Below the pieces are notes generated by a model. That model was given only the letters and a program-made list of their open reading frames with translations. It made no database searches and had not been told where the DNA came from. From positions 1 through 64,000 of the forward strand of contig JAPPGF010000036.1 in the NCBI GenBank assembly GCA_028875075.1: a DNA stretch of 64,000 nucleotides, in the 5' to 3' direction. This document shows, one piece after another, positions 43,599 to 45,759 of the stretch (position 1 is its first letter; every line of letters begins with the position of its first letter). This DNA is from Gemmatimonadota bacterium. Its GTDB lineage: Bacteria; Gemmatimonadota; Gemmatimonadetes; Longimicrobiales; Gaopeijiaceae. A program made the translations under genes and the position numbers.

Positions 43599-44021
43599 CT
43601 ACAGGTATTGGCCCGCTCTGCACGGGGGACGATAGGGCCGGCAGTTTCCGTCTGGACAGTCCGGCTCGGGAACGAGCAGGAAATCGTAGCGCAAGGGCTC
43701 CACACCCACTTCGAGTGTGATGGAATCGCCGGCGAACCCGTTGTTGCCAACGGTCAGCGCATACGACTCGCCGGTTCGGACCCGCAAGCGATATCGTCCG
43801 GAGTTGTTCGTGACCGCTGGCTCGGCTTCGCCCTCGATACGGACGACGGCGCCCGCGAGTCCGCACGAATACAGGTCCGTGACATATCCATAGATAGCTG
43901 TCTGTCCAGCTGAGTATGTATCGAACGGGACGAAGTTCGGGCGCGGGCCGCATCCGGCGGCAAGCAGGCAGATTGCTAGTGCCGCAACTTTCGGCTCGTT
44001 GCTACCGAACGAGATAGGCAT
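43599..44021 (-). CDS. Lipoprotein with carboxypeptidase-regulatory-like domain
   Basis: A 140-residue lipoprotein: signal VAALAICLLAAGC with a lipobox, then a single beta-sandwich domain of the CarboxypepD_reg type (IYGYVTDLYSCGLAGAVVRI, TNNSGRYRLRVRTGESYAL). The C-terminal tail CPDGNCRPYRPPCR has three Cys. Such domains usually mediate protein contacts at the cell envelope; no partner is evident. Confidence 0.78.
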   Translation of the reverse strand: MPISFGSNEPKVAALAICLLAAGCGPRPNFVPFDTYSAGQTAIYGYVTDLYSCGLAGAVVRIEGEAEPAVTNNSGRYRLRVRTGESYALTVGNNGFAGDSITLEVGVEPLRYDFLLVPEPDCPDGNCRPYRPPCRAGQYL

Positions 44022-44091: not shown

Positions 44092-44745
44092 TCAAGGCGG
44101 GGTCGCGAGGGAGCGAGCGACTGCGGCTCGCGCGTCGCTCAGAGTGACGCCCAGACCGCGGAGCGCCTCGCCCGCTGGTCCTCCCTCAGCGATCAGGCCC
44201 AGCAGGACGTGCACCGGGTCAATCTGTCGATCGCCTCGCACGTTCGCCTCCTGAATGGCCCGATCAAGCACGCTCCGCGTCGAGGCAGCATCGCCGAAGC
44301 TATCCGTGTGAGTGTGGGGTTCGGCCGAAGCCAGGAACTCCAGCACTCGCCGCCTGAGCTCATCGAGACCCACGTCAAACCCGGCCAACACTTCTGTGGT
44401 CCTGCGGTCCCTTTCGAGGGCAAGTGCCAGGAGGAAATGCTCCGGTCGGACATATGCATGCCCCAGGCGAGTCGCTTCCGAATCTGCCCGTCCCAGCAAT
44501 CCTTGAGCCGCCTCGCTGAAGTAGTCCCCGGCTACGGGCAGTAGCGCCCTCGTGACTCCCGGTTGGGAGACTCTGCGTCCGGTTACTGATAGCACGACGT
44601 CGCGGGCACTCTCGCCCAGGCGTCGTCCGAGTGCGGGGAGCATCCTTCCGCCCATGAGGAGCAGCACGACGACAACAAACAGGATGAGCTCGGTCGTGCC
44701 GATTCCACCGAACGGAAGCACCGCCGCTTCGCTCACTGTTTGCAC
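44092..44745 (-). CDS. TatA-like membrane anchor fused to a ClpN (Clp repeat) domain
   Basis: One uninterrupted frame encodes two domains that normally belong to different proteins. Residues about 10 to 50 read FGGIGTTELILFVVVVLLLM, then GGRMLPALGRRLGESARDVV: a TatA/TatE N-terminal helix, the short hinge and the amphipathic helix. Residues about 70 to 217 contain two Clp repeats: FSEAAQGLLGRADSEATRLG, AYVRPEHFLLALAL, and SVLDRAIQEANVRGDRQIDP, VHVLLGLIAEGG, as in the N-domain of ClpC/ClpA. No AAA+ domain follows. It would place a Clp-type substrate or adaptor-binding domain at the inner membrane. The start is uncertain; GTG 44745 is chosen after a GGTGAG, and GTG 44733 would give MSEAAVLPFGG. 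Confidence 0.85.
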   Translation of the reverse strand: MQTVSEAAVLPFGGIGTTELILFVVVVLLLMGGRMLPALGRRLGESARDVVLSVTGRRVSQPGVTRALLPVAGDYFSEAAQGLLGRADSEATRLGHAYVRPEHFLLALALERDRRTTEVLAGFDVGLDELRRRVLEFLASAEPHTHTDSFGDAASTRSVLDRAIQEANVRGDRQIDPVHVLLGLIAEGGPAGEALRGLGVTLSDARAAVARSLATPP

Positions 44746-45021
44746 GTTGACACACTCACCCCCCGCCCGCACGAGCCCACGTACTCTCATGATTGACCGT
44801 TCCCTCGAAAGCCAGTGTGAAGCGACAGGTCACCAACTGGTCCGGTGGAATGGATGCTCTTCCAGCGCTACCGACGCTCTCATCCGGCGCGGATCCCGCC
44901 CAGCGCGTCCTGCAGTTGCACCCCGAATTCCTTGTCATGAGCCGTAAGGTGAGTGTCTCCCTCTGGGCCGACTCGCTCAGCAGAGGATGTCCGGGCTAGT
45001 CCCGGTGAAGATCAGTGGCGC

Positions 45022-45659
45022 TCACATGCCCGCGGGCAGCCGGACGGAGTGCAAGATATCGTGTACCATGCGGGGATCGAAGGTCGAGCGGCTCAGGGAA
45101 ACGGCGAGCGTGAGCAGGAGTCCTCGGGAGGGAAGCATGGCTACTGTACGCACGATGTCGATGGCAGAACCAGGCACGAGCGCTTCCTGCTCCAGCACGA
45201 GGACATCGCGATCTTCGATGAACTTCGTTTCGTGCCAAACGCACTCGCCCATCCCGCCGTACGTTCCGCCTGGTCGGCGAAGTCCTCGCAGACGTGGGTG
45301 ACGACTGCCTGGACATCTTCCGGGTTCACGAACGCGTCGATCGTCATGGCCGGAGCGACCGAGGCGTTCATCTGAGTCGAATTGCTGCGAACGCCTGGGT
45401 CATTAGCGCGGAACAGGAAGGCATCGTCACCGTTCGCGGCCATTTCGCGGAACGCTTCGAGGGTTGGTTTGCGAACTGCCATCGGAGCACGTTCGAGGAT
45501 CGTGATCAGCTCTTCAGCGTTGGTAAGAACCCAGGAGGCCGGCACGCCGACCCGAATGTCCAAACCGACGTCGTACATGACCAGATCGGTCTGAGCCGAG
45601 GCTTCGATGGCTAGGCAACCCAGAGTGCCGAGCGCAAGAAGTGCCGGTCTTGGAGACAT
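45022..45659 (-). pseudogene. Secreted protein of unknown function, frameshifted
   Basis: The first part (start 45659, AGGAGG four bases upstream) has a signal peptide (LLALGTLGCLAIEASAQ) and runs VMYDVGLDIRVGVPASWVLT to VCEDFADQAERT. At about 45255 the frame shifts: the tracked frame turns into SSSKIAMSSCWSRKRS, while the next frame continues YGGMGECVWHETKFIEDRDV, LEQEALVPGSAIDIVRTVAM and ends RMVHDILHSVRLPAGM. The second reading is clearly protein-like and completes the domain. Either one base is lost in nature or it is a sequencing indel. I do not recognise the family; PsbP-like or similar small secreted domains are possible. Confidence 0.65.
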
Positions 45660-45759
45660 CAAGCCTCCTTCGTCCGGGTGGGCTCGGTGTTCGGTGGAGT
45701 TACCCCCGTCATGTGTTCTGGTCGAGGGCTCCTAGGGAGCAACAAACCTTCAGACGGCC

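Follow-up and report, generated by a model that had tools for sequence, protein, structure and literature searches.

Results

A TatA-like helix and a Clp N-domain in one reading frame

The window analyzed here is a stretch of 64,000 nucleotides (positions 1 to 64,000 of contig JAPPGF010000036.1) from the draft assembly GCA_028875075.1 of a Gemmatimonadota bacterium. On its minus strand, an open reading frame at 44092–44745 encodes a protein of 217 amino acids. The frame opens with a GTG codon at 44745, preceded about 9 nt upstream by GGTGAG, and ends with a stop codon at 44092–44094; an in-frame ATG at 44790 is an alternative start that adds 15 residues. Pfam matched the TatA_B_E family to residues 15–47 (24.1 bits, cut-off 21) and Clp_N to two stretches of the protein (84.8 bits, cut-off 20.7; E = 4.6e-24), while no Pfam match to an AAA+ domain was obtained within the frame. 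In NCBIfam, the best matches were Hsp100 N-domains and TatA models, each scoring under its own cut-off. The first 62 residues were scored against a profile of 26 other TatA sequences, from which the fusion protein was excluded, and reached 55.3 bits, compared with a maximum of 31.8 bits among 5000 shuffles that preserved the composition of each block (tail, helix and amphipathic part). This result and the E value of the Clp_N match rule out chance as the source of either half.

The two halves have similar GC content at codon positions 1/2/3 (0.74/0.49/0.70 and 0.78/0.51/0.68). The remaining two frames are interrupted by stops, and neither shows an evident tail of Tat or Clp type. We therefore rejected a frameshift or artefact as the origin of the junction; the fusion is real in the assembly. 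The earlier note had read the frame as a TatA-like membrane helix followed by two Clp repeats with no AAA+ domain, a description borne out by the Pfam matches, the shuffle test and an AlphaFold2 model.

The TatA-like half lacks the Phe-Lys motif of TatA

The TatA-like part (residues 12–54, 44584–44712, minus strand) was delimited by Pfam, the shuffle test, alignment, and hydropathy and helical moment. It consists of an FGG tail, Glu19, a short hydrophobic helix, an MGG hinge and an amphipathic helix, and thus resembles TatA/TatE in having a short N-terminal helix with a polar residue, a glycine hinge and an amphipathic helix. Conserved features include the FGG-IG-TTE stretch, the glutamate at the start of the membrane helix, the hinge glycine and the proline after the hinge. 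The amphipathic moment of the second helix is also retained, at 0.59 compared to 0.56 in the genome's own TatA. Unlike TatA/TatE, however, the protein carries Clp_N in place of the tail, its gene is not near tatC, and it has lost both the hinge phenylalanine and the Phe-Lys motif. In particular, the hinge reads Met-Gly in contrast to Phe-Gly in the other aligned TatAs, and the amphipathic helix has Val-Val at the site of the Phe-Lys motif; both the hinge phenylalanine and the Phe-Lys pair are nearly invariant in the 26 aligned TatAs. In E. coli TatA, Phe39 and the FK motif have been reported to be essential (PMC4148689; PMC13186574). TatA can do without its C-terminal tail (PMC13186574). The earlier note had called the TatA part complete; functionally it is not, given the replaced hinge phenylalanine and Phe-Lys motif.

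With the NCBIfam tatAE model the fusion scores 21.2 bits, under the cut-off of 53.9; the genome's main TatA (contig C39) scores 67.8 bits and a second TatA (contig C31) 41.5 bits, likewise under the cut-off. Both of these TatAs are canonical with intact motifs, and the genome also encodes TatC, so the fusion is not needed as a Tat subunit and an anchor role is likelier for it than a translocase role. Given the two motif replacements as well, the TatA half is more likely an anchor taken over from TatA than a functioning subunit of the Tat system.

The C-terminal half is predicted to fold as a ClpC-type N-domain

A linker (residues 55–73, 44527–44583, minus strand), placed by AlphaFold2 with low confidence in its first part, leads into a ClpC-type N-domain with two Clp_N repeats (residues 74–213, 44107–44526, minus strand), assigned from Pfam, PDB sequence matches, AlphaFold2 and Foldseek. 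The input alignment for AlphaFold2 contained 24 sequences, the fusion protein and 23 Clp_N domains, and the model has a mean pLDDT of 78.6. Most of residues 71–213 exceed 85, while residues 17–55 form a single long helix of mixed confidence and residues 2–13 and 45–61 fall below 50; confidence in the membrane helix and hinge is only low to moderate. In a Foldseek search of the PDB, the top-ranked structures were ClpC N-domains (4p15, 2k77, 2y1q and 6pbs), at a TM by target of about 0.8; N-domains of ClpB and ClpA came lower in the list, and the phosphoarginine-bound ClpC N-domain 5hbn was also matched. In the model, the two Clp_N repeats together are one ordinary ClpC-type N-domain. The structure prediction that the earlier note proposed thus returned a confident domain of this type behind the membrane helix.

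The fold, the two repeats, the core residues and the E32-type glutamate are shared with the N-domains of B. subtilis and S. aureus ClpC and M. tuberculosis ClpC1. E32 and E106 are binding determinants of the two phosphoarginine pockets of ClpC, and adaptors bind the same domain (PMC12583610). Site mapping onto B. subtilis ClpC showed that E102 of the fusion corresponds to E32, while V178 occupies the position of E106, so that the second pocket glutamate is lost. At other ClpC sites, T7 is replaced by Ser, T81 by Ala, Y80 by Asp and K85 by Arg. The fusion further differs from ClpC in having neither an AAA+ domain nor an M-domain and in the membrane helix in front. The core residues and fold are maintained at about 30% identity to any relative. 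A tree of Clp_N domains puts the fusion outside the ClpC cluster and among accessory Clp_N proteins, where it does not settle the exact place; the branch leading to the fusion measures 2.24 changes per site. A recent duplicate or piece of the genome's clpC was rejected as the source of the Clp half because of this long branch.

Genome content and gene neighborhood

The genome encodes an mcsA-mcsB-clpC cluster on contig C21 (L109:835-4983), in which the genes upstream of clpC match McsA and McsB, and ClpB is encoded on contig C2. From this cluster, protein arginine phosphorylation is likely present in the lineage of the fusion. An ATP-guanido phosphotransferase was found in 27 of the 29 genomes searched; it stands beside clpC in the fusion genome and, judging from coordinates, also in many of the other genomes. 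The earlier note had proposed looking for separate tatA, tatC, clpC and clpP genes: two TatAs, TatC and ClpC are encoded, but a search of the draft, which is 91.6% complete, gave no ClpP. Since ClpP occurs in 58 of the 59 genomes of the relatives search, the fusion genome being the exception, and the draft is incomplete, its absence is probably an assembly gap. The missing ClpP was accordingly dropped as an argument against a Clp role.

The fusion gene is flanked by genes for a CarboxypepD_reg protein, a frameshifted secreted-type protein, a DUF2007 protein, a MutS-like protein and an aquaporin, with no tat or clp gene near it. The next gene downstream (43599–44021, minus strand), which encodes the small secreted or lipoprotein-like CarboxypepD_reg protein, lies across a 70 nt gap and has no evident link to the fusion. 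A frameshift near 45245 apparently splits the secreted-type gene at 45022–45662 (minus strand): the protein encoded by the frame at 45141–45662 seems to carry on in another frame to 45022. We found neither a promoter-like site for the fusion gene nor an operon partner supporting a role, and a search for RNA families near it gave no match.

The fusion is known from a single genome

Apart from the fusion genome itself, none of the 59 genomes in the close-relative search (E up to 0.001) has both halves, and the matches listed for the order (154 genomes), the class (394) and the phylum (395) include no further case. The thresholds of these wider searches lay between 1e-15 and 1e-17; the samples of class and phylum share genomes, and in most of the rows listed for them scoring covered 7 candidates from each genome. 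Among the matches listed from genome_contigs, plasmids and viral contigs there were likewise no further fusions. The earlier note's suggestion that the same two-domain order be sought elsewhere was thus followed across order, class and phylum, and the matches listed contain no further example. Two congeners yielded ClpC-type, ClpB-type and TatA matches only; the region is not syntenic with theirs, and the flanking genes are scattered there. No orthologue of the locus, split or fused, was found in the relatives, which have ordinary TatA and ClpC elsewhere. The literature searches found no published description of a TatA-Clp_N protein, in line with the earlier note, which knew of none. The fusion protein is therefore known from one genome.

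Accessory Clp_N proteins in related genomes

Five proteins from relatives G055, G011, G023, G056 and G043 (L041:5688-6551, L042, L043, L047 and L048) consist of two Clp_N repeats followed by a winged helix, which we take from reading the sequences to be of GntR type. Two others (L044:1746-2261, 172 aa, and L049:4909-5373, 155 aa) are Clp_N-only proteins without an AAA+ domain or membrane helix, from which the E106-type glutamate is also absent. Like these seven proteins of the same order, the fusion has an accessory pair of Clp_N repeats without AAA+, some of them also lacking E106; unlike the fusion, they have no membrane anchor as far as their sequences show, or are fused to a DNA-binding domain.

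The Clp_N repeats on a transcription factor recall the DNA-binding ClpC2. ClpC2 of mycobacteria is a partial homologue of ClpC1 that sequesters cyclomarin from ClpC1, and its authors proposed that it competes for substrates or adaptors (PMC10030653). The fusion is similarly a Clp N-domain without the AAA+ motor in a genome that has a full ClpC, with weak sequence similarity to ClpC2 (PDB matches 8ad9 and 8b9o), whereas ClpC2 has not been described as carrying a TatA-like membrane helix. Given this helix, DNA binding such as that of ClpC2 to its own promoter is less likely for the fusion.

Discussion

Our tentative proposal, which we hold at slightly less than even confidence, is that in this protein a helix hairpin derived from TatA anchors a ClpC N-domain without its motor to the inner face of the cytoplasmic membrane. 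Sequence and model directly supply the two-part build, the N-domain fold, the absence of AAA+, the loss of Phe-Lys and the McsA-McsB-ClpC set on which this proposal draws. The TatA part would be a short membrane anchor with its N-terminus out and its C-terminus in, and the Clp_N part would bind a subset of the ligands of ClpC N-domains, namely hydrophobic peptides, adaptors or arginine-phosphorylated proteins, the last of these through the remaining E32-type pocket. Such ligands could be concentrated at the membrane or, by analogy with soluble ClpC2, withheld from ClpC. The protein would then probably serve ClpC ligands as a docking site, or as a decoy, at the membrane. The earlier note's idea that Clp substrates or adaptors are brought to the membrane is plausible and is backed by the mcsA-mcsB-clpC cluster in the same genome, the role itself being one that we infer. 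Against a membrane tether stand the occurrence in a single genome, the want of a promoter-like site or operon partner, the failure to find ClpP in the draft, and the low to moderate confidence with which the membrane helix and hinge are modelled. A more specific version, in which the protein is a membrane receptor for arginine-phosphorylated or unfolded proteins that uses the TatA copy as its anchor and so connects degradation by McsAB-ClpC with the membrane or with the Tat translocase, appears distinctly unlikely.

The main rival to the membrane tether, which we regard as somewhat unlikely, is a chance fusion or relict, in which a decayed tatA copy and an old accessory Clp_N gene were joined in one lineage and have no selected function. 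The lack of a second genome with both halves, even in the two congeners, the scattering of the flanking genes there, the loss of conserved residues from the TatA half and the frameshifted look of a neighboring gene all agree with decay. However, an open frame of 217 codons with a coding GC pattern in both halves, a Clp_N fold and core kept at such low identity to any relative, and a second helix with its amphipathic moment preserved speak against a relict.

A specialized Tat component, i.e. a TatA/TatE-like subunit whose Clp_N tail couples transport to the recognition of misfolded or arginine-phosphorylated cargo, would fit the TatA_B_E score above the Pfam cut-off, the retained membrane-helix glutamate and hinge glycine and proline, the dispensable C-terminal tail of TatA (PMC13186574) and the TatC encoded in the genome. 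We consider it unlikely, as the hinge phenylalanine has become Met and Phe-Lys has become Val-Val where Phe39 is required in E. coli TatA, the tatAE score falls short and the gene lies far from the tat genes. The related suggestion of quality control of Tat cargo is weakened by the loss of the Phe-Lys motif needed for TatA function and by the lack of a tat gene nearby. That the assembly falsely joined a tatA fragment to a Clp_N gene is very unlikely: the draft has 42 contigs, the fusion occurs once and a frameshift lies nearby, but the halves are at best 34% and 44% identical to other genes of the genome, both have strongly diverged from relatives, and the frame is unbroken with even codon composition.

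The N-domains of ClpC help determine what the Clp protease destroys. To our knowledge, the motor-less Clp N-domains described so far, such as ClpC2, have not been reported as membrane-anchored. The Clp_N repeats on GntR-type regulators in the same order suggest that Clp N-domains detached from the motor form a broader class of modules for ligand binding, one that has received little study. If the protein described here is membrane-anchored, it would show that the membrane can be a site of Clp recognition and that a TatA helix can take on a new use as a simple anchor.
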